Shown piece by piece: positions 13,870-27,550 of a stretch of 64,000 nucleotides of DNA (position 1 is the first letter of the stretch; each line of letters starts with the position of its first letter). Made by a program: the position numbers and the translations under genes. Origin of the DNA: Acidimicrobiales bacterium (GTDB taxonomy: Bacteria > Actinomycetota > Acidimicrobiia > Acidimicrobiales > SZUA-35); NCBI GenBank assembly GCA_020629155.1, contig JAHDDW010000001.1, positions 156,454 to 220,453 on the forward strand, given 5' to 3'. The notes beneath the pieces are model-generated. The model was not told where the DNA came from, ran no database searches, and saw only the letters and a list, made by a program, of their open reading frames with translations.

Positions 13870-13906
13870 GTTCCAATCCTCGCCTGGGAGTTACCCCAGG
13901 CGTTAC
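13870..13906 (-). CRISPR. Leader-distal CRISPR repeat separated from the array by an IS insertion
   Basis: Exact 37-bp repeat GTTCCAATCCTCGCCTGGGAGTTACCCCAGGCGTTAC. Confidence 0.95.
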
Positions 13907-13935
13907 TTCAGCTATACCTAATTTCTTCTCGGACC

Positions 13936-15367
13936 GAGTTATGATCGAATTTGGTGTATGGGTTGGTTAGCGGTGTGTCCGGTTGATTAAATATTATTCA
14001 CGAAAATTTCTATTTAATTGAACCTGGAGCACAACCACTATGAAAGATAATACTATCAAAATTGTTGATGAAGTAAATATTTTTGATGGGTCTTTTGATC
14101 CGTTGACTGAGTTGATTAGGAAAGGGGCCCGTGATTTGATTGCTGGTGCTGTCGAAGCAGAACTGCAAGTTTTGTTGGACGGGTTCAGTAATGTGAAGAC
14201 TTTGGATGGGCGTGCTGGTGTTGTGCGTAACGGCTTTCAGCCGACACGAGAAATTTTGACTTCTGTCGGGTCTGTGAAAGTGCGTATACCGAAAGTACGG
14301 TCACGCACAGGTGACCCGGTTACTTTCCGCAGTGTTCTTGTCCCGCCGTATCTGCGTAAAGCCCGCTCGTTGGAAGCTGCTATCCCTTGGCTGTATCTGA
14401 AAGGTGTTTCCTCCGGGGAGATGGGTGACGCTTTGAAAGTGTTAGTCGGTGATGAGGCTGCTGGATTATCGCCAGCTGTTGTATCACGACTCAAAACAAA
14501 ATGGGCTGGCGAGTACGACGTGTGGTGTAAACAAGACTTAACGAGTGACGAGTTTGTCTATATTTGGGTGGATGGGATCCACTCCGGACTACGCACACCG
14601 GCAGTCGATAGAATAGACGGGAACTCAGATAAGCTTTGCTGCCTCGTCGTCATAGGTGTCACCAGCGCAGGCGAAAAAAGGTTTCTTGCTGTCACCGATG
14701 GTGACCGTGAGTCGAAACAGTCATGGAAACAAGTTCTTGTTGATTTAAAGAGCCGTGGCATGAACGTTCCGAAGCTTGCTGTTGGTGATGGGGCTATGGG
14801 GTTTTGGGCAGCAGCCGACGAGATTATGCCTGAAATGAAACACCAGCGGTGTTGGGTTCACAAAACATGCAACATCATGAATTATCTACCGAAAAGCTTG
14901 GAAGGTAAAGCCAAAGTAATGTTGAAAGAAATCTATATGTCTCCCACGGTTGATCACGCTGACAAAGCTTTTGAACAGTTCGTTAAAACGTTTGAGGCGA
15001 AATATCCGAAAGCGATAGTATGTCTTCAAAAAGACAGGGATGAACTGTTAGCATTCTATAGTTTCCCGGCTCAGCACTGGCAATCTATACGAACCACGAA
15101 CCCTATCGAATCAAGTTTCGCGACTATTAGGCACCGCACGAAACGTTCTAAAGGATGTCTATCGAAATCTACGATGTTGCACATGATCTACAAACTCGCA
15201 ATGACAGCCGAAAACAATTGGAACCGTTTGAAAGGATTCAACCAGCTACCAGAAGTCGCGAAAGGAGTAACATTTATCAACGGGGAACACCCAAACCAGC
15301 AACAAGAAACAATGATCAACCAGACAGCTGCCTAAACACTCTCATACACCAGATTTGACAATAGCTC
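13936..15367 (+). mobile_element. IS256-family insertion sequence (1432 bp) with 8-bp TSD ctcggacc
   Basis: ctcggacc at 13928-13935 and 15368-15375; imperfect TIRs gagttatgatcgaatttggtgtatgggttgg / rc gagctattgtcaaatctggtgtatgagagtg; contains a transposase. Confidence 0.92.
14040..15335 (+). CDS. IS256-family (mutator-type) transposase
   Basis: 431 aa; YIWVDGIHSGLR, GDGAMGFWAAADEIMPEMKHQRCWVHKTCNIMNYLPK, TTNPIESSFATIRHRTKRSKGCLS. Confidence 0.95.
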   Translation: MKDNTIKIVDEVNIFDGSFDPLTELIRKGARDLIAGAVEAELQVLLDGFSNVKTLDGRAGVVRNGFQPTREILTSVGSVKVRIPKVRSRTGDPVTFRSVLVPPYLRKARSLEAAIPWLYLKGVSSGEMGDALKVLVGDEAAGLSPAVVSRLKTKWAGEYDVWCKQDLTSDEFVYIWVDGIHSGLRTPAVDRIDGNSDKLCCLVVIGVTSAGEKRFLAVTDGDRESKQSWKQVLVDLKSRGMNVPKLAVGDGAMGFWAAADEIMPEMKHQRCWVHKTCNIMNYLPKSLEGKAKVMLKEIYMSPTVDHADKAFEQFVKTFEAKYPKAIVCLQKDRDELLAFYSFPAQHWQSIRTTNPIESSFATIRHRTKRSKGCLSKSTMLHMIYKLAMTAENNWNRLKGFNQLPEVAKGVTFINGEHPNQQQETMINQTAA

Positions 15368-15382
15368 CTCGGACCTCAAGAG

Positions 15383-18300
15383 GTTCCAATCCTCGCCTGG
15401 GAGTTACCCCAGGCGTTACGTTCGAACTCGACTGGTGATAGATAGCCGAGCGATGTTCCAATCCTCGCCTGGGAGTTACCCCAGGCGTTACCGAAGTGGC
15501 CAGCGTAACCCGTATAGCTCAATGGGTTCCAATCCTCGCCTGGGAGTTACCCCAGGCGTTACACTGTTTTTATGGGTGAGGGTGCTGGCTCTGCGTTGTT
15601 CCAATCCTCGCCTGGGAGTTACCCCAGGCGTTACCACCGTAAAGAGGTCGCCCGTGCGGCTCTTGAACATGTTCCAATCCTCGCCTGGGAGTTACCCCAG
15701 GCGTTACTAGCACTCGATTCCAAACCAAAGGACAGCGTAAACAGTTCCAATCCTCGCCTGGGAGTTACCCCAGGCGTTACCGTGGCCAGCGTGCAAAGGT
15801 CGAGACCCCACAAGATGGGTTCCAATCCTCGCCTGGGAGTTACCCCAGGCGTTACTGTTAGGCGGCTGACCACCACAAAGTATTGTGGTGTTCCAATCCT
15901 CGCCTGGGAGTTACCCCAGGCGTTACTCACACTCACAAATGCGCTGAGTCTGAAGTCAAGTTCCAATCCTCGCCTGGGAGTTACCCCAGGCGTTACCGAA
16001 GTGGCCAGCGTAACCCGTATAGCTCAATGGGTTCCAATCCTCGCCTGGGAGTTACCCCAGGCGTTACACTGTTTTTATGGGTGAGGGTGCTGGCTCTGCG
16101 TTGTTCCAATCCTCGCCTGGGAGTTACCCCAGGCGTTACCGTTCGAACTCGACTGGTGATAGATAGCCGAGCGATGTTCCAATCCTCGCCTGGGAGTTAC
16201 CCCAGGCGTTACTAGATCCTATTCTGGTCTGAATCGTGGTCATGGTCTGTTCCAATCCTCGCCTGGGAGTTACCCCAGGCGTTACTGAGACCACCGCCAA
16301 CAGACCTAACACCACAAGCAGTTCCAATCCTCGCCTGGGAGTTACCCCAGGCGTTACCTTACTCCAAGGCTGAACTGTTTCTGATACAAAACAGTTCCAA
16401 TCCTCGCCTGGGAGTTACCCCAGGCGTTACTGCCGTCTTGTTTGATTATAGAACTCGATGTAGTCGTTCCAATCCTCGCCTGGGAGTTACCCCAGGCGTT
16501 ACAAGACTTAGAGGCGTTAAGTGACGAAGCGTCAATCAAGTTCCAATCCTCGCCTGGGAGTTACCCCAGGCGTTACCCAGAGTTGCGGCGTAGAGCCGCC
16601 AACGGTGAGAAGTTCCAATCCTCGCCTGGGAGTTACCCCAGGCGTTACGAGTTTTGATCTTGTATCCGTAGTTCATGGCAACTTGTTCCAATCCTCGCCT
16701 GGGAGTTACCCCAGGCGTTACTTAGAGTTATCAACTGATCAGGAGCTTTCAGATCGTGTTCCAATCCTCGCCTGGGAGTTACCCCAGGCGTTACAGGAAG
16801 CTGCCCAAAATTTACAACTACGAAAAAAAGTTCCAATCCTCGCCTGGGAGTTACCCCAGGCGTTACACAATAAGCACGGCATAATAATGTCGCTGTTTGG
16901 TGTTCCAATCCTCGCCTGGGAGTTACCCCAGGCGTTACCTTCTCGCACTTCCTCACTGAAACCATCAGATACAGTTCCAATCCTCGCCTGGGAGTTACCC
17001 CAGGCGTTACCATATCAGAATTAAAGCTGGCGCTGGCAAACCAGTTGTTCCAATCCTCGCCTGGGAGTTACCCCAGGCGTTACTGTTAGGCGGCTGACCA
17101 CCACAAAGTATTGTGGTGTTCCAATCCTCGCCTGGGAGTTACCCCAGGCGTTACAGTACGAAATCAAGGCAAGCTTGATTTCCGTGGAGGTTCCAATCCT
17201 CGCCTGGGAGTTACCCCAGGCGTTACCAGCAACAGCAAACAAGACAACAACAACAAACGGCAGTTCCAATCCTCGCCTGGGAGTTACCCCAGGCGTTACG
17301 GTTTGCCTGGTTGGGAATATGCGCTTGAGAAAAGGTTCCAATCCTCGCCTGGGAGTTACCCCAGGCGTTACAGAGCAGACCGATAACTAGTCCTTTGCTG
17401 AGGTCTGTTCCAATCCTCGCCTGGGAGTTACCCCAGGCGTTACTAGAGTTCGATGACCTGTTTATAGCCCATGAAATAGTTCCAATCCTCGCCTGGGAGT
17501 TACCCCAGGCGTTACCTTTCGTAGAGGATCTAGACGCTGCGCAGGGGTCCAAGTTCCAATCCTCGCCTGGGAGTTACCCCAGGCGTTACCTCACATGTGT
17601 CGGTTGAGGGTGAGGATGAGAATGGGTTCCAATCCTCGCCTGGGAGTTACCCCAGGCGTTACTTGAGCGGTGACAGTGTGAGGGATCGAGAGGTACGGGT
17701 TCCAATCCTCGCCTGGGAGTTACCCCAGGCGTTACTCAAATTCGTCTTGTGCGATTTCCTCCAAGTCAGCGTTCCAATCCTCGCCTGGGAGTTACCCCAG
17801 GCGTTACCCGGATGAGGATGCTCATGTATTTCAGACGAATCGAAGTTCCAATCCTCGCCTGGGAGTTACCCCAGGCGTTACATAGAGTTCGATGACCTGT
17901 TTATAGCCCATGAAATAGTTCCAATCCTCGCCTGGGAGTTACCCCAGGCGTTACCTTTCTCATCTATCTTTCTTGGTTTCGTATCTCTTGTTCCAATCCT
18001 CGCCTGGGAGTTACCCCAGGCGTTACTCAAATTCGTCTTGTGCGATTTCCTCCAAGTCAGCGTTCCAATCCTCGCCTGGGAGTTACCCCAGGCGTTACTG
18101 GCCAGCGTGCAAAGGTCGAGACCCCACAAGATGGGTTCCAATCCTCGCCTGGGAGTTACCCCAGGCGTTACCAGAACGATCACCAGACGATCAAGCCACG
18201 ACAGAGTTCCAATCCTCGCCTGGGAGTTACCCCAGGCGTTACCGGGTATTTGCGTGCAGTGCAGCCGCCTTTAGATGGTTCCAATCCTCGCCTGGGAGTT

Positions 18301-18823
18301 ACCCCAGGCGTTACGCAAAGGGTTCGGCGAGTATATAACGAAACTCGGTTTAGTTCCAATCCTCGCCTGGGAGTTACCCCAGGCGTTACATTATCGCTTG
18401 TACAGTTGATGGCGTGGAAGAAAGTTCCAATCCTCGCCTGGGAGTTACCCCAGGCGTTACAAACAAGTTTACTTGTATGGTTTGGGTATGACTAAGTTCC
18501 AATCCTCGCCTGGGAGTTACCCCAGGCGTTACAACAGAGTTGCGGCGTAGAGCCGCCAACGGTGAGAAGTTCCAATCCTCGCCTGGGAGTTACCCCAGGC
18601 GTTACAGATAGACCATAGGAACCTACCCGAAAACCATGCAGTTCCAATCCTCGCCTGGGAGTTACCCCAGGCGTTACGGTCCAGCCCTGCCCGAAAAAAT
18701 CTTTGTGATCACTGTTCCAATCCTCGCCTGGGAGTTACCCCAGGCGTTACTTGTCACACCCAGTTTGTAGACTCGGGGCGCAACAAGTTCCAATCCTCGC
18801 CTGGGAGTTACCCCAGGCGTTAC
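15383..18823 (-). CRISPR. Main CRISPR array: 48 repeats of 37 bp here (49 with the isolated copy), spacers 33-38 bp
   Basis: Repeat on predicted crRNA strand: GTAACGCCTGGGGTAACTCCCAGGCGAGGATTGGAAC, stem CGCCTGGG/CCCAGGCG, 3' end ATTGGAAC; counted by eye. Confidence 0.98.
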
Positions 18824-18955
18824 CCTGACTGAACAGGAATTATTCATTTCATCTTCGCTGGACTATTCATCTCAACCTTTAAGATTTGTTTTGCAGCGGA
18901 TTTTTGGGGCGGAAGAATAACCATTTATACGAGCACTCTAGGACCGCCCAGTTTT
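18824..18955 (-). promoter_or_regulatory. Putative CRISPR leader between cas2 and array
   Basis: 132-bp non-coding, AT-rich segment on the cas2-proximal side; orientation inferred from cas order and repeat 3' end. Confidence 0.6.
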
Positions 18956-19246
18956 CTATATAACCAAAGCATCTTTTGGTCCAAAGTCTGGTTTGTTACC
19001 TAGCTTGACAACATACGCATCAAACGGCTCACGCAATCTATACATAGCGACCTGATCTACAGTTGCATCTATAGCTGCCTCCAGACGATGACGAAAAACC
19101 ATCATTTCAGAGGCATCCACTTTGCATTCAAAAACTGAATTCTGAACCCGGAAACCGTACGTTTCACAGACCTTTGCCACCTTTCTCAATCTTTTCTCTC
19201 CCTCTTTAGAAGTCGTTTCGATATCATAAGTAACTAGAATTTCCAT
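18956..19246 (-). CDS. cas2: CRISPR-associated endonuclease Cas2
   Basis: Internal start: MEILVTYDIETTSKEGEKRLRKVAKVCETYGFRVQNSVFEC. Confidence 0.95.
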   Translation of the reverse strand: MEILVTYDIETTSKEGEKRLRKVAKVCETYGFRVQNSVFECKVDASEMMVFRHRLEAAIDATVDQVAMYRLREPFDAYVVKLGNKPDFGPKDALVI

Positions 19247-20271
19247 TATCTCCCAACCGCTCGAAATGGAATATATTGTTGCATATCTTTGCGCAAATGT
19301 CTTGCTAACAACGCAGCCTGCTGTTGCGCAACAAATGCCCTGGGGCTCCGACAGTCCAAATTCTGACATTCGACTTCAGCACTCATAAATGAATCAAGAG
19401 CGCTAAAAAGAACTTTCCTTCCTTCATCTTTGAGCTCAACTGCACCACCTGGTCGAAAATCAAAATGCTTCAATTGAACCTGTTTCCGGTTGATGATATT
19501 TACAACAAAACGGTCAACAAATGGTGCTCGAAACTCTTCTAGCAAATCTAACGCAAGTGATTGTCTTCCTGGTCGTACATCGTGTAAAAAACCAAGCTGA
19601 GGATCCAACCCGACGGCTTCGCACGCAGCAACACATTTGATCCTCATTATGCCATAGCAGAAAGAAAGCAAAGCATTTGTAGGGTCAAGCGGCGGCCTGC
19701 GGGTCCGTAATGAAAAATTAAACTCCTCAGGAACTAGCAGTGCAGAAAGGTGCTTAAAGTAGAGACGAGCTGACTGCCCCTCAATCCCTCTCAATGTATT
19801 CAAATCTTCCACTTCTTTCACATTGCGTGCGTAGACTGTCAGCTGTTTAGCAGCTTCTCGCAAGCTACTAGCTATCTCACTTCGATCCTTTGCTGCGTCG
19901 TCTAACAAACCACGAGAGTTAAGAATTTTTACAGCCACAATATTTTTAGAGACGGCCAGCTTTATCGCTTTATCTTGCGCAGACTCATACTGAGCTTGAC
20001 GCAAGAGAACGTTGCCAGAAACACCGCTTTGGACCCTACCTACAAACCGACCAGCACGAGTAAACCAGACAATAGAAGGCCCTTCTAAAGCAGAACGATG
20101 GATTAACGAAGTTGTTGTTCCAATAGAACCATAGAGATGAATGGCTTCAATCTGTTGAAGCGGTAAACGATGCAGAAGTTTCCCTTCTTGTTTAGCGACG
20201 ACCGAACCGCCTTCAAGTTTCAATTGGATACCCTGCGTCGAAACATGCAGAACTTTACGGACAATCCTCAT
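19246..20271 (-). CDS. cas1: CRISPR-associated endonuclease Cas1 (I-C)
   Basis: Internal start overlapping cas4 stop: MRIVRKVLHVSTQGIQLKLEGG...SFCYGIMRIKCVAACEAVGLDPQLGFLHDVRPGRQSLALDLLEEFR. Confidence 0.96.
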   Translation of the reverse strand: MRIVRKVLHVSTQGIQLKLEGGSVVAKQEGKLLHRLPLQQIEAIHLYGSIGTTTSLIHRSALEGPSIVWFTRAGRFVGRVQSGVSGNVLLRQAQYESAQDKAIKLAVSKNIVAVKILNSRGLLDDAAKDRSEIASSLREAAKQLTVYARNVKEVEDLNTLRGIEGQSARLYFKHLSALLVPEEFNFSLRTRRPPLDPTNALLSFCYGIMRIKCVAACEAVGLDPQLGFLHDVRPGRQSLALDLLEEFRAPFVDRFVVNIINRKQVQLKHFDFRPGGAVELKDEGRKVLFSALDSFMSAEVECQNLDCRSPRAFVAQQQAALLARHLRKDMQQYIPFRAVGR

Positions 20272-20888
20272 ATGGCATTCCAAACCGAACTTATTTTGCC
20301 TCCGACTTTTTGCCGATTCTGAGACAACTGTGGCATGCACGTTCTAGCTAACGAACATCTATCGCAACGCTTGTCATTAACAGGCGCAGGTAAAAACTCT
20401 GAAGCATGCAAGCGACGTACTTTATCAATCATTTCCTGCAATTCTGATCGCAAACCGCTATCAAAGTTCACTTTCTGCCGCTTCTTTGTCTTCGCTAAAT
20501 AGAGAAACCCAAATGAGATCTCAACAGCAAACATTTCTTCCAAACAGACTGCTTGGCCCATAAGTTGCAGCTCAGCAGAGCGGATCTTTAAACGACTTGA
20601 TTTATACTCGACAGGCAAAGGCGGCTTGTCTTTGTGGAACTCGACCGCATCTGCTATTCCATACAAGCCAAGAGTATCAGACCAAACCGGCAACGACCGC
20701 TCTACCCGAACTAAACCCCGAGTTTCAGAAAAACCTGAATCAACCCTTTGATGAACTAAATGTCCAGCGGTTGTTTCTACATTGTCCGAAAAAGTTGATT
20801 CCATAGAAATTAGCCCCCACTGGCGGGGGCAGTACGACACATGTTCAATCTCAGAAAGCCGAACCTGTCTATTGCTTTTATCTGTCAT
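20268..20888 (-). CDS. cas4: CRISPR-associated exonuclease Cas4
   Basis: EIEHVSYCPRQWGLI...PVEYKSSR...CDRCSLARTCMP Fe-S cysteines. Confidence 0.93.
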   Translation of the reverse strand: MTDKSNRQVRLSEIEHVSYCPRQWGLISMESTFSDNVETTAGHLVHQRVDSGFSETRGLVRVERSLPVWSDTLGLYGIADAVEFHKDKPPLPVEYKSSRLKIRSAELQLMGQAVCLEEMFAVEISFGFLYLAKTKKRQKVNFDSGLRSELQEMIDKVRRLHASEFLPAPVNDKRCDRCSLARTCMPQLSQNRQKVGGKISSVWNAI

Positions 20889-21811
20889 TCCAGAATCTTG
20901 ACATCGCCGTCGACACCCAGAAAAGTGTGTGTAACATCAGCAGGTAGTTTCGTCCGATCAACCGTCACTTCATAGTCGCCATATGTTCGTGGAGGTTCAA
21001 CAACCGCTTTTGTTTCGACAGCGGAAAATAGCTTATCGGCATGGACTGAACCGAACGCATCGCTGTGAGAAAAAACGTGTATGCCGCGACAACCTGTAAC
21101 GCCACGACTCGCCGAGCGATCAAGTGACCACATGCGCTGCAATGTATCCCACCACAAGGCCAGGTCTTCACCGTTAAAGCCAGTTCTTCGAGCTAGCGAC
21201 GGTACGAAAAAACCAGGCGTGCGAAACAAAGCGTAAGGAACGAGGCTTTTGGAACCCATTTCACGGTTTTTGCCACCTTCCCCGCTCTCCATTTTTTCTA
21301 ACTCTTTCTCATCGGTAACAGCGACACGGGTAATCGTCAGATCTGAGATGAATAGTGGATCAACGCTTTTCGACAAACCAAGTTGAATAGGGCCTCTGAT
21401 TTGACCAGCAGGATTATCCCCAGTGGAAAGCACACCACCAAAGGTGCGGATATCCCACCACTTTTCGCAAAGCAGACTGCCAACTTTGTCTTGATCGGCT
21501 TTTGACCTTTTTTTGCTCGGTTTCATTTTAAGCTCAACAGAGGCTTCACGCAACGCAGCATTGAGCGCTACGCCTTCTGAAACATGGATCCCGTAACCAT
21601 CTTCGCCCTGCTTAAGCTCGGCAACAAAATTGCGAGCTTTGCGCTTAATCGCTGCGTCAGTCACCCAACCTTGCGATGTTTCTATATCAACCCGTGGCGC
21701 ATTACCATTATCTGGATCGCCATTGGGGTTGCCTCCTGTCACGTCATAAAGCATGACAAAATCATGCCGAAGTGTAGGATCAAGATGTCTAGTCATTGTT
21801 GGTACCTCCAT
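20885..21811 (-). CDS. cas7: Type I-C Cas7 (Csd2); likely start a few codons in
   Basis: HDFVMLYDVTGGNPNGDPDNGNAPRVD Csd2 signature. Confidence 0.95.
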   Translation of the reverse strand: MEVPTMTRHLDPTLRHDFVMLYDVTGGNPNGDPDNGNAPRVDIETSQGWVTDAAIKRKARNFVAELKQGEDGYGIHVSEGVALNAALREASVELKMKPSKKRSKADQDKVGSLLCEKWWDIRTFGGVLSTGDNPAGQIRGPIQLGLSKSVDPLFISDLTITRVAVTDEKELEKMESGEGGKNREMGSKSLVPYALFRTPGFFVPSLARRTGFNGEDLALWWDTLQRMWSLDRSASRGVTGCRGIHVFSHSDAFGSVHADKLFSAVETKAVVEPPRTYGDYEVTVDRTKLPADVTHTFLGVDGDVKILE

Positions 21812-23576
21812 TAGTTGTAGATTCTTCTAATTCTTGTTCAGATTTTTCTTTAGTAAAACGCATATGACGGTTGCTCCAGAAACCCAAGCTAAACTCTGCC
21901 TGGCCGCGAAGATCTAAGTGTTCAGGGAAAACCGATAGTTCTGCAATTTCATGTTGTAACGCAGCTAAACGTTTGGAAATATTGACAGCAAGACCTGGCT
22001 TTTCTCTCTTAACTTTCGCAAGATGAGCCGAAGCTTTTTTCATCACCCCAGGGAATGTCCTTCCTGGCGAAACACTCGCTGAGGCAAAAAACTTCTCACC
22101 CACTGTTCGGTTAACATTGCCCAGCGCATGGTACTGCAAACGGTCAAACTCATCAAGCAACTCCCCACAAATAAATGCTGGTGTTCTCTCCATAGTTTCC
22201 TTTCCAATTGGTTTTTCTATAAGTAACGAGATAAGCACGGCACGTGCATCAGACATACCTTCAACTCTTGCGCGACGTAATGTTGGGCCTAGATGGCTTA
22301 ACGGAAGCGGCTTGCCGAAAAGAGCATGCTGTAACAAATCGTTCATCAACTTTTTTTGTGATGCAAGATCTTTCCTTCCGCCAGATTTGGGGGGCGAAGC
22401 TGCTCCAGCAAGTGCGTAAATCCCGTAGTAACGCACACCGTTTTTATTCACGACTTTTGTTTTTTCAAACCATTCACGTAAACGCTGTTCGACCTCACCG
22501 ATAGTCGAAACATCTGATGAGCGCAAAATAACTCGCCCTGTGCCGCGTGGTTCTAACATCACGCCGTGAAACTTGTCAGTTGCTTTTACTTTTGATTTAG
22601 CGCCACCCCACATTGATGAATTAAGCATTTCTTTGACTCGTGCTGCATCAGGCTCAGGCAGTGCATTTATACCAAAGGTCTCAACGCCGACATGTTCCTT
22701 CGCCCACCAAACAAACGTAGCGTCATCTATTCGTACCGTATTTTTAGGGTTACGAAGAAGCCAACCAAGTGTATGCTGGCTTTTCCCAGCCACTTCAGCT
22801 GACACTCTCGCACCAGAAGCTTGCACCGCATTATAACGAAGTAACGAATCTTCATTTGCTGACACCAGCGGAGCGCTCGTGCCACCAATTGGAATGCTAG
22901 GGAATAGCCGAGCGAGCGGCAGCTCTTCACCTAGCACCTGGCAGACTCCCACATCGCCACTTTCATTTTCTCGTCGTTTTTTAGCCCAAAAATCGCCTAT
23001 CGATGCTGGAGCTGAGGCATCGAAAAGGTCTACGCCGTCAACATTGAAAGCGCAGAAAAAATTAGCAAGCTCCTTCTGTTTTTTTGCTGGATTAGTAGAG
23101 AAATCATACAAATCAGGATAATTTTCTTTCAGTACCTGAGCAACGTTTTCTTTCTCTTCTACAAACAAAAGCACGCTCTGCACAAGCTCTTTCGCTCTTT
23201 CCTCTTGTGAGCCGTCAATAAACTCTTGCAATAAAGCTACATATTGTGCATAACTTTCAGCAGCACGTTTTTCGCTTTTCTCTTTACCAGGCTCAGTAGC
23301 AAAACCAGCAACATAGGTAAGCTTGTCAGTTATAAAAAGCGCTTTAACGCCAGAAGTTCTTTTCGGGTCTTCAGCCTGAACTCGTGGGGCACCTGCTTTA
23401 AATTCTTTGCTTCGGGTATCAATAACGTTCAAGCAATTGCCATTGAGGTCTAGCCGAAATACAAACGGAATTGGTTTGAAAACCATTCCATAAGGGGGAA
23501 ACGGCCTATACTCATCTGCGCTGAACTCTTCGCGTAGCGGTTCATACAATGAATGCAATTCGGCCAGAAGCGTCAT
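21789..23576 (-). CDS. cas8c: Type I-C Cas8c (Csd1)
   Basis: 595 aa between cas5 and cas7; Csd1-like N terminus and C-terminal half. Confidence 0.92.
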   Translation of the reverse strand: MTLLAELHSLYEPLREEFSADEYRPFPPYGMVFKPIPFVFRLDLNGNCLNVIDTRSKEFKAGAPRVQAEDPKRTSGVKALFITDKLTYVAGFATEPGKEKSEKRAAESYAQYVALLQEFIDGSQEERAKELVQSVLLFVEEKENVAQVLKENYPDLYDFSTNPAKKQKELANFFCAFNVDGVDLFDASAPASIGDFWAKKRRENESGDVGVCQVLGEELPLARLFPSIPIGGTSAPLVSANEDSLLRYNAVQASGARVSAEVAGKSQHTLGWLLRNPKNTVRIDDATFVWWAKEHVGVETFGINALPEPDAARVKEMLNSSMWGGAKSKVKATDKFHGVMLEPRGTGRVILRSSDVSTIGEVEQRLREWFEKTKVVNKNGVRYYGIYALAGAASPPKSGGRKDLASQKKLMNDLLQHALFGKPLPLSHLGPTLRRARVEGMSDARAVLISLLIEKPIGKETMERTPAFICGELLDEFDRLQYHALGNVNRTVGEKFFASASVSPGRTFPGVMKKASAHLAKVKREKPGLAVNISKRLAALQHEIAELSVFPEHLDLRGQAEFSLGFWSNRHMRFTKEKSEQELEESTTNGGTNND

Positions 23577-24274
23577 AATACAACCTTCATATCTGTCATT
23601 TCCCCTGCTGTTATAGGAGGAACTTCTAAAATCCCTTCCGTAATAGTCGCTTCAAACCATGTTGGGTTTATAACGCTAGGATTCTCTCTATGCTCGCTGC
23701 CTCCTTGCGTACGCACATATTTTTTATAGCCAAGATCAAGCGGCATCGAGCCAATAGGCAACGTAACCGATGTATCAATCTTGTCTTCTTCAGAAGACTC
23801 AGCAAAAAAGCCTGTGTATTCTCTAAGACCAAGATATGGCGGTGTAAAAAACGCACCTTTTTTAACTCGACGTTTAAACTGCTCTGAATATTTTTTGACA
23901 GGATCAGTTGCGTGCTGACGAAGCTCAATCTGCGAGGTTACAAGGTAGGCGACATCTCGAAGCATGAGACTGTGCCGCTGCACACGCTGATCGACAGCAG
24001 AAATACCTTTTAAAGATCCATCTGATTTCTGGCTCGACGCACGAGCTGTCACCTCATTACGAGACATTGACAACCACGACGGCTGCTTCAGTAACCCGAT
24101 TTGTTTGATACGCCAATCAAATTCTGGCTTCCAAAATATCGCAGACAAAAACCCAACGGCAGCAGGTGGTGTGATGCAAGGATATGACACCCGTTCAGTC
24201 GCATATTCAGGACGAGTAAAACACGCCAGATCACCCCAAATTTTGATAGTTAACTCCTCACTTTGCTTCCCCAT
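23573..24274 (-). CDS. cas5: Type I-C Cas5
   Basis: IKIWGDLACFTRPEYATERVSYPCITPPAAVGFLSAIFWKPEF. Confidence 0.94.
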   Translation of the reverse strand: MGKQSEELTIKIWGDLACFTRPEYATERVSYPCITPPAAVGFLSAIFWKPEFDWRIKQIGLLKQPSWLSMSRNEVTARASSQKSDGSLKGISAVDQRVQRHSLMLRDVAYLVTSQIELRQHATDPVKKYSEQFKRRVKKGAFFTPPYLGLREYTGFFAESSEEDKIDTSVTLPIGSMPLDLGYKKYVRTQGGSEHRENPSVINPTWFEATITEGILEVPPITAGEMTDMKVVL

Positions 24275-24371
24275 CTTTTCCTTTCTCTGGCAGACAAGCA
24301 GACATTAACACACGGGTGTGACATAAAAAGAAACTGCTTTTAATTTGATTTACTTTGCAATTACGCTCGTT

Positions 24372-26621
24372 TCACCAGCTGTGTGATTTGGCCTCAAAGA
24401 TTAGACCTAGAGTGTCGTCGTATTCGCCTACCCATACGTGCATGCCAACGGCTACCCTATGCTCCTGAATCAAGCCAGCTGCCAATGCATCATCAAAGTC
24501 TTTTTGTCTCAGCGAAACCAACCACGGCTGCAATTTTCGAGCAACTTCTCGGAAAATTTTCGTGCCGCTATCTACCAGGGCAAGTAATGTATCAAGCGTT
24601 TCTGTGTCGCCATAACGCACAATCACCGACACTGTTTCGTCCGCAATGAGTTTATATTTTTCGGCTACCTCTTTAAAACTCAAATGTTTCCGAGAATCGC
24701 TGACACCTTTTGCGTCAAGTTGCGTTTTGAAAGCCACAACAAGTTGATCATAAAAGTTCTCTATCCCCTCAGGCGAAGTGACAGCAACACCTTTGTTTAG
24801 AAGCTTTCGCGTCTCATCTGTCGCTTTCTTATACATTCCAGGCGGTGTTCTCCCATCAGCGGGATCAAACACATGCAAGATAGCTTCTTCTTGAGCGTTT
24901 CCATGACGATTGATACGGCCTTCGACCTGTGCAATAGAAGTAGCTGGCCCAAGCGCTCGAAACCCTACAGGAAACGAAATATCAACGCCAGCTTCGACGA
25001 CTTGAGTAGAAACCAACACGACAGGTTCGCCTGCGTCTAAGCGTCGACGTACTTCTTTTAACACCACACCACGATGAGCGGCACATAATCGAGTCGATAA
25101 ATGCAGCAACGCCGAAGCATCATCCATGGACTGGGTTAAGGCAACTGCATCTTTTATTGTGTTCACCACAACAAGCGCCTGCCCAGCTTTCTTTGCAGCC
25201 GCTTCAGTAACGATACTCGCCATTTCTTCCCAGCTACGAGGCTCACCATCCCAGGCTACTTTGACACGATTAAACTGCGAAAACCAATGCTCAGTATTGT
25301 CTAGAAGCTCAACGGGTTTCGCCTGTTTCAAAGAAGGCAGTTTCTGCACTGGCGGCTGTGTCGCCGTCATCAACACCACGCTTGAACCAGCAAATTCACA
25401 AAGATCTCGCAGCATCAAACATGTTGGGTCGAGCAGCTCCCATGGAATCGACTGCACCTCATCTATTAATACAACAGCCTCTGCCAAACGATGCACCGTG
25501 CGACATTTCCCAGGCCGGTTAGAGAAAAGCGATTCCAGTAGCTGCACCGACGTTGTGACAATAACTGTTGCATCCCAATTCTGGCTTCTCAAACGCAAGC
25601 GCCACTCGTTCTGGGTGCCATGACCAACATTTGAGTGATGTTCAAGCACCACTTCTTCAGCATCGACCACGGCCGGATCAGCGAGAAGTTTGCGAAACAC
25701 CTCGGCATTCTGTTCAGTTATTGAAATAAACGGTACAGCCATAACGATTCGACGCAACCCGTGTTTGCGTCCATGCGCCAAAGCAAACCGAAGGCTTGCA
25801 ATTGTTTTACCTGCCCCTGTCGGAGCTGTCAAAGTAAATAACCCTGTACCGGTGTGAACTTTTTTGCAAACAGAAGCAGCAATAGCATTTCGAGACACTG
25901 TGACTCGGTCATGCTGTCGATCTTTAACAAGCTCGGAAAGATTACTTTCCAATCTTTCCGAAAGTTCACCCAGCGACACAAACCGATGAAGACGAGCAGC
26001 CGAACGCTGAGGGTCAAAATGTGATTCTGTATCGAGCGAGTCAGCATCGACAAGACATGAGAAAAGCAGCCGAATAAAGAAGTCTTGTCCGCACCGCGAT
26101 CTACTTCTTTGATTCGCCAAATTCTTCTTCCAGCTCTCAGGCCAAAAATCTGTGGAACCTGTGGAGAAAAAATTCCGGTTCTCACACGCTATTGACAATG
26201 CTTCCACAATCTCTTTCTTATCTTTAACAGCTGCAAGTTCCTCCAATTCCGCATAATTTGGGATACCTCCATGATGGCCTAAAATAGCTAAAGGCAAAGC
26301 GGCCTGACGAATAAAGCATTGTTTAACCCCTGCTTCTTTCTGCGACCAAAGCGCACCAGCTGTTTTATGGCCAACACGAAAATCTGCTTTTGCCCGTTCA
26401 GGATCATTCTCTGCTACTTGCAAATACTTTTGAAATTGCGGTGAAAGTTTTCCTAAATCATGCCACAAACCTGCTAACCCCGAAGCAGCGATTCCTATAC
26501 CTGCCTCTTCACCAAATTGCCCTGCTAGTTTTTCAACTTTGCTGAGATGATCAACGAGCAAGTGCCATTGGCCGAAACTATTCGGAGTATGCGCAACAGC
26601 TTTTTTTAAATCATTCGACAT
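24372..26621 (-). CDS. cas3: CRISPR-associated helicase/nuclease Cas3
   Basis: HD region GLWHDLGKLSPQFQKYL; helicase TAPTGAGKTIASLRFAL, LIDEVQSIP, STQVVEAGVDISFP. Confidence 0.95.
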   Translation of the reverse strand: MSNDLKKAVAHTPNSFGQWHLLVDHLSKVEKLAGQFGEEAGIGIAASGLAGLWHDLGKLSPQFQKYLQVAENDPERAKADFRVGHKTAGALWSQKEAGVKQCFIRQAALPLAILGHHGGIPNYAELEELAAVKDKKEIVEALSIACENRNFFSTGSTDFWPESWKKNLANQRSRSRCGQDFFIRLLFSCLVDADSLDTESHFDPQRSAARLHRFVSLGELSERLESNLSELVKDRQHDRVTVSRNAIAASVCKKVHTGTGLFTLTAPTGAGKTIASLRFALAHGRKHGLRRIVMAVPFISITEQNAEVFRKLLADPAVVDAEEVVLEHHSNVGHGTQNEWRLRLRSQNWDATVIVTTSVQLLESLFSNRPGKCRTVHRLAEAVVLIDEVQSIPWELLDPTCLMLRDLCEFAGSSVVLMTATQPPVQKLPSLKQAKPVELLDNTEHWFSQFNRVKVAWDGEPRSWEEMASIVTEAAAKKAGQALVVVNTIKDAVALTQSMDDASALLHLSTRLCAAHRGVVLKEVRRRLDAGEPVVLVSTQVVEAGVDISFPVGFRALGPATSIAQVEGRINRHGNAQEEAILHVFDPADGRTPPGMYKKATDETRKLLNKGVAVTSPEGIENFYDQLVVAFKTQLDAKGVSDSRKHLSFKEVAEKYKLIADETVSVIVRYGDTETLDTLLALVDSGTKIFREVARKLQPWLVSLRQKDFDDALAAGLIQEHRVAVGMHVWVGEYDDTLGLIFEAKSHSW

Positions 26622-26650: not shown

Positions 26651-27550
26651 TTATCTGTTACAGGCGTGGTCGACTCGTATGGATGAGGCGTTGGGTACTC
26701 CCCCAAATTTGTAATCGTTAACTGAGGCGCAACTGCCGACTTTGTTTGCTGCAATTGTTGGTCTTGCTGCGATTCCATCACAAGATCCTGCAAGAATCAT
26801 GCATTGAAATTCGTCTGATTTCATCATCACTTCATATTTAAGATGCTCTCGACCATCGGCTGCTATCACTGCTTTCTGTAACGCTATTTCGCTATCATTT
26901 ACCTGCCCAAGATCGTAGTAACGCAAATAACAGTTCCAATAGAGTGCCTTGATATATTGTTCATCGCTGCCTGTTTCAGGCGTGTCGTTACAATACACAT
27001 TGTAAGGCAGATTCACCACTTGCTTTTGCGGCGCAACAGTAGTTGGCTTTTGAGTTGTCACAGGTTTCACAGTTGTTACGGGCTTAGAAGTCGTCACCGG
27101 TTTTGAAGTGGTCCCAGGCCTCGAAGTAGCGACCGTCGCAGGCGCAGTCACAGATGTTTTTTTCGTGGTCTTAGAAGTTTCTTGCACTCCAGAAGGTTTT
27201 CTTGTTGTTGCAGGTTGAGAAGTTGAATCTCTTGGTTGTAACGTCTCTGATGTCTTATTCTGCTTTTCTTTAGAACCTTCACTTGGCGATTCTTTATCGG
27301 AAGCAATTTCTCCTTCAGTTCCGAATGTCGAAGCAGACCCAGTCTTCTCTGTTTCAGAATCTTCGCCATCTTCAGGCAGGAAAATATCGGGCGAAACTTT
27401 ATCGCCGAATGAATAGCCATCGGCTTCTACCATTGTTCGGCTCTGCAAACCTTCTTCAGTCGTAGCACGCGTCATCAACACAGCTCCAAGAATGATTAAA
27501 ACTCCCAGCACGCATTTCAAGGCCACATCTTCATGATAAGTGACCATCAT
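26651..27550 (-). CDS. Membrane-anchored Thr/Pro-rich protein of unknown function, just upstream of cas3
   Basis: N-terminal hydrophobic segment, TTSKPVTTSKPVTTVKPVTTQKPTT low-complexity linker, Cys-containing C-terminal domain. Confidence 0.6.
   Translation of the reverse strand: MMVTYHEDVALKCVLGVLIILGAVLMTRATTEEGLQSRTMVEADGYSFGDKVSPDIFLPEDGEDSETEKTGSASTFGTEGEIASDKESPSEGSKEKQNKTSETLQPRDSTSQPATTRKPSGVQETSKTTKKTSVTAPATVATSRPGTTSKPVTTSKPVTTVKPVTTQKPTTVAPQKQVVNLPYNVYCNDTPETGSDEQYIKALYWNCYLRYYDLGQVNDSEIALQKAVIAADGREHLKYEVMMKSDEFQCMILAGSCDGIAARPTIAANKVGSCASVNDYKFGGVPNASSIRVDHACNR

Follow-up and report, generated by a model that had tools for sequence, protein, structure and literature searches.

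Length-variant duplicate spacers suggest repeated capture of the same protospacers in a type I-C CRISPR array of an Acidimicrobiales bacterium

The window (the whole stretch of 64,000 nucleotides analysed here) carries a type I-C CRISPR-Cas system, made up of an array and, to its right, a cas operon. The operon (18956..26621, minus strand) reads from left to right cas2, cas1, cas4, cas7c, cas8c, cas5c and cas3 according to its NCBIfam matches, with cas8c (Csd1) above its curated cut-off (TIGR01863, 233.5 bits against 218.65), cas5c and cas7c likewise above theirs (TIGR01876 and TIGR02589), and the Cas4 and Cas2 models also matched above cut-off. The best match of Cas1 is to the I-C model, yet it scores 360.7 against that model's cut-off of 385, lying above the cut-off for cas1 in general, and no cas6 was found among the seven operon genes. 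An earlier note on this DNA had claimed type I-C, and the cas8c, cas5c and cas7c matches, together with cas4-cas1-cas2 and the TTC PAM described below, bear this out. Similar to other type I-C systems, the locus has the full gene set in the canonical order cas3-cas5c-cas8c-cas7c-cas4-cas1-cas2-array, a 5'-TTC PAM, the repeat end ATTGGAAC and spacers mostly of 34-37 nt; it differs in its 37-bp repeat, a length found in a subset of surveyed I-C repeats, for which 32-33 bp is common. Directly upstream of cas3 lies a 299-aa open frame (26651-27550 of the window) that has no NCBIfam or Pfam match.

The array itself (13870..18823, minus strand) consists of 49 identical 37-bp repeats, all exact in the organism's own genome (crRNA sense GTAACGCCTGGGGTAACTCCCAGGCGAGGATTGGAAC), and 48 spacers, which measure 33-38 nt and in most cases 35 or 36. 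It begins at 13870, to the left of the 15420 given previously, because an IS256-family element sits in the oldest spacer (TTCAGCTATACCTAATTTCTTCTCGGACCTCAAGAG, 13907..15382), which it splits; the element has terminal inverted repeats, and its target duplication (CTCGGACC) is 8 bp long. The element's transposase lies at 14040..15335 on the plus strand (NF033543, E 5e-90), and the insertion at 13907-15382 leaves both flanking repeats undamaged. Since the cas operon is transcribed from cas3 towards the array, the leader is placed at 18824..18955 (minus strand), between cas2 and the newest repeat, with the newest spacers on the right and the crRNA strand being the minus strand, so that the crRNA direction claimed earlier agrees with the position and strand of both operon and leader. 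No sigma-70 consensus was found in the leader, and its repeat-adjacent end reads GG.

Eight spacers, here called A to H, are present twice, as had been claimed, and they comprise four exact pairs (B, C, D and F) and four variant pairs (A, E, G and H). Giving the older copy first, and with all copies on the minus strand, the variant pairs are A at 15420..15454 (35 nt) and 16140..16175 (A', 36 nt, with one extra PAM-distal base), E at 15781..15818 (38 nt) and 18099..18134 (36 nt, two PAM-distal bases shorter), G at 16577..16611 (35 nt, crRNA-sense end ..CTCTGG) and 18533..18568 (36 nt, crRNA-sense end ..CTCTGTT, with one terminal substitution between the copies), and H at 17444..17478 (35 nt) and 17882..17917 (36 nt). 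The exact pairs are B at 15492-15525 and 15997-16030, C at 15563-15597 and 16068-16102, D at 15856..15889 (34 nt) and 17084..17117, and F at 17736..17770 (35 nt) and 18027..18061. In all eight pairs the right-hand end (plus orientation) is identical and there are no internal base differences, and in A, E, G and H the left-hand end differs, solely in the 1-2 outermost nt on the PAM-distal side. For these four pairs the coordinates, lengths and sequences in the earlier note proved exact, as did its fixed right end and ragged left end, including the substitution in G. The chance of a shared core of at least 34 nt among the 1128 spacer pairs is negligible. Absent from that note is the finding that B and C adjoin in the same order in both copies, such that the older block of B, C and the repeat between them (15492..15597, minus strand) recurs exactly and in unchanged order at 15997..16102 (minus strand).

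This density of duplicates sets the array far apart from the arrays with which we compared it. The comparison set comprised 30 further arrays with 1036 spacers and 34,515 pairs, the majority belonging to I-C loci that lie either in genomes of the same phylum or on plasmids; two of the arrays (from G306) were chosen for repeat similarity. Non-adjacent near-identical pairs number 8 of 1128 here and 7 of 34,515 in the 30 arrays, an excess of about 35 times, or 26 times without B and C (Fisher p 5e-9, where p values are descriptive since pairs within an array are not independent). None of the 30 arrays has more than two duplicate pairs. A search for exact repeats in a collection of genome contigs and in 41 genomes, relatives included, returned no sister array with this repeat, and a cas1 search of that contig collection gave no match.

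Three distinct spacers (27, 48 and A) have protospacers that we judged genuine, and in all three TTC stands directly 5' in crRNA sense, at the fixed end, which bears out the claim that the fixed end is the 5', PAM-proximal one. Spacer 27 (17227..17262, minus strand) has an exact protospacer, and the newest spacer, 48 (18751..18786, minus strand), has one that differs at 4 positions without gaps (97% identity in the local BLAST alignment), both with a TTC PAM and both on the same 5780-bp contig (C70, L035) of a genome from the same genus (G001). This contig encodes a serine resolvase, after which comes a 215-aa protein without a Pfam match; phage structural genes were not found across its 5780 bp, and it is more likely a plasmid than a phage. 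The 215-aa protein has four relatives in the array's own genome, at 44-53% identity. Spacer A, with 3 mismatches, matches an IS3-family transposase that is present in three copies in a genome from the same family (G052), and this target is a diverged relative rather than the source. The extra base of the longer A copy is G in crRNA sense, and G occupies position 36 in all three G052 copies, whereas the IS3 copies of Streptomyces, the sole matches among plasmids, have A there; in the proposed check of the extra PAM-distal bases against the target, applicable to pair A, the longer copy thus agrees with the diverged relatives in G052 and disagrees with those in Streptomyces. Among annotated phages we found no protospacer for any spacer of the array, and for B to H none in annotated phages or plasmids.

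Spacer 16 (16431..16465, minus strand) falls in the same IS3 transposase gene as A, with 6 mismatches in L036 and a matching protein motif. Its site ends 3 nt before that of A, those 3 nt being the TTC PAM of A, and its own upstream bases in this diverged target are GCC, not TTC. Counting A twice and spacer 16 once, this gene (L036 1579-1652, G052 contig C48) accounts for three captures in about 75 bp. For spacer 19 the organism's own genome contains a similar sequence in a HigB/Gp49-like toxin gene, with 6 mismatches and without a TTC, possibly a self-match that has decayed or else a relative of the true target; the gene (L012 1464-1999, G000 contig C58) adjoins a helix-turn-helix gene. The TTC PAM expected to be common to all targets thus holds for those of 27, 48 and A, but not for the diverged ones of 16 and 19. 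A match of spacer 5 in G264 (87% over 38 nt) consists partly of repeat and has no TTC, and we took it as chance.

Taken together, these observations make it very probable, in our judgement, that this type I-C array captured the same protospacers on more than one occasion, with A, E, G and H re-acquired, B-C more likely recombined, and D and F explicable either way. At each uptake Cas4-Cas1-Cas2 would place one fragment end at the TTC PAM while the PAM-distal end would be trimmed imprecisely, and therefore repeat captures of one protospacer would share their 5' end in crRNA sense and lie 0-2 nt apart at the 3' end. In the type I-C system of Bacillus halodurans, Cas4-Cas1-Cas2 cuts precisely at the PAM and leaves the other end seemingly unprocessed (PMC6519985), which predicts just such spacers with a fixed 5' and a variable 3' end; that work is in vitro biochemistry, whereas we observe natural repeat captures in one array, where Cas4 presumably sets the fixed end as well. 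The mechanism is thus already known, and it is the density of re-acquisition that is unusual. The lengths are also in keeping with it. Random draws from the single-copy spacers differ by 0 in 30%, by 1 in 45% and by 2 in 18% of cases, and the differences in our pairs (0, 0, 0, 0, 1, 1, 1 and 2) fit such random pairs; eight independent re-acquisitions would give about 2.4 pairs of equal length, we see four (probability of at least four of eight, 0.23), and so on length alone all eight could be re-acquisitions.

The earlier note had extended re-acquisition to the duplicates as a whole, and this part we follow for A, E, G and H, whose ragged distal ends make independent re-acquisition much the best explanation, but not for all eight, as the exact pairs could equally come from recombination and B-C forms a repeated block. 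D and F are compatible with re-acquisition and equally with recombination. B-C is the only instance of exact, adjacent copies in the same order, the hallmark of block duplication (permutation p 0.048), and since identical spacer series are considered in a review unlikely to be acquired twice (PMC8047081), we regard it as probably recombined, likely as a block copy between repeats or sister arrays. The trio A, B and C also recurs within 3-unit windows, as B-C-A' (p 0.0017), and the change from A-B-C to B-C-A' fits either a second exposure at the same favoured sites or a crossover after which A was captured again. As a refinement of the re-acquisition reading, and one that does not exclude it, a single crossover between lineages that shared the old A-B-C end may have duplicated B-C, with the other pairs re-acquired: an unequal join of ..A B C 5 6 E D 9 with B C A' 13.. 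would account for the block and for A' outside it, and exact copies of B and C are what it would give. However, if A, B and C are the strongest sites, two exposures that each struck them would likewise yield A B C and B C A', and the search of genome contigs and 41 genomes found no sister array, so that we hold this crossover to be quite conceivable but lean slightly against it.

Duplicate spacers are normally attributed to recombination, and one might ask whether recombination or replication slippage, within or between arrays, produced all eight pairs, with later mutation causing the length differences. The side-by-side recurrence of B and C in unchanged order and the recurrence of the trio speak for this, as does the SpacerPlacer reconstruction, in which 86% of 805 duplication candidates were assigned to duplications and 1% (8) to reacquisitions (PMC11472070). 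Against it, four of the eight pairs differ, and do so solely at the PAM-distal junction, for which random placement would have a chance of about 1 in 100,000 (a hand estimate, (2/36)^4); the second copies of A and H are not part of any colinear block, A' following B-C instead of preceding it; and all 49 repeats are identical, so that the locus shows no mutational decay. We therefore consider it improbable that recombination made all the duplicates. The ragged ends could also stem from off-by-one integration at the leader-repeat junction, which would append the last leader base, G, and so create the extra G of A' and the terminal substitution of G from unchanged source DNA. Indeed the leader ends in GG beside the repeat, G is the last base both of A' and of the older G copy, and 16 of 47 spacers have a terminal G against 11.0 expected (p 0.065), but with the arrays pooled, the excess does not single out the leader base (permutation p 0.09), the next-to-last position is equally enriched, H (+T) and E (+CG) are left unexplained, and the relatives of A's target already have G at that position. 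We rejected this origin as unsupported and rate it as very unlikely. Least probable of all is an artefact of assembly or sequencing, even though the genome is a draft in 59 contigs, the B-C block with its repeats presents 180 identical bp and the A copies differ by one C in a CC run: random errors would not be confined to one spacer end in four pairs, the 49 repeats are all free of errors and a 564 kb contig runs through the array, a verdict reached from the pattern alone. Re-acquisition of A, E, G and H remains our preferred reading, in which a variant source or a terminal error has to be assumed for the substitution in G.

As to why so many re-acquisitions are found here, eight coincidences in 48 draws are what about 141 equally likely sites (72-327) would give. 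Dense sampling of a small target is not favoured as the cause, as partly overlapping spacers at neighbouring PAMs would be expected, yet there are none, the ends of distinct spacers having no stretch of 8 nt or more in common; in a simple model in which TTC is taken to occur once per 64 bases on each strand, a small dense target would give zero overlaps with a probability of 0.0005-0.01. The better reading is that particular PAM sites are preferred and were met repeatedly. Of the two causes offered previously, an acquisition hotspot therefore gains ground in the form of favoured PAM sites, and re-exposure to the same element would be needed as well, so that the same elements presumably returned.

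What makes the array of interest is this density of re-acquisition, combined with the use of the ragged end as a diagnostic. A duplicate with a fixed PAM end and a ragged far end is not a straight copy, and because the ragged end rules out straight copying, such duplicates offer a test, from sequence alone and in any assembled array, that separates re-acquisition from recombination, and also a record from nature of the strength with which acquisition prefers certain PAM sites. SpacerPlacer recognizes a similar class, a spacer acquired again after an earlier uptake, but assigns it by reconstruction over groups of related arrays and finds it to be rare (8 of 805), while our assignment comes from the ragged distal end inside a single array (PMC11472070). 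At present we can only speculate, and rather doubtfully, that ragged PAM-distal ends mark re-acquisition across ordinary assemblies, that re-capture at the same site in some arrays far exceeds the reported 1%, and that a few favoured sites supply much of long-term CRISPR memory. Three pairs that vary in length or at their ends were found in the comparison arrays. In one, spacers 8 and 11 of an array on an Acidisoma plasmid (L119), the copies are shifted by one base at both ends, and a fixed PAM end is accordingly not universal; the other two (L085 and L088) have a constant 5' end and a variable 3' end, like the variant pairs described here, which speaks for the same reading.
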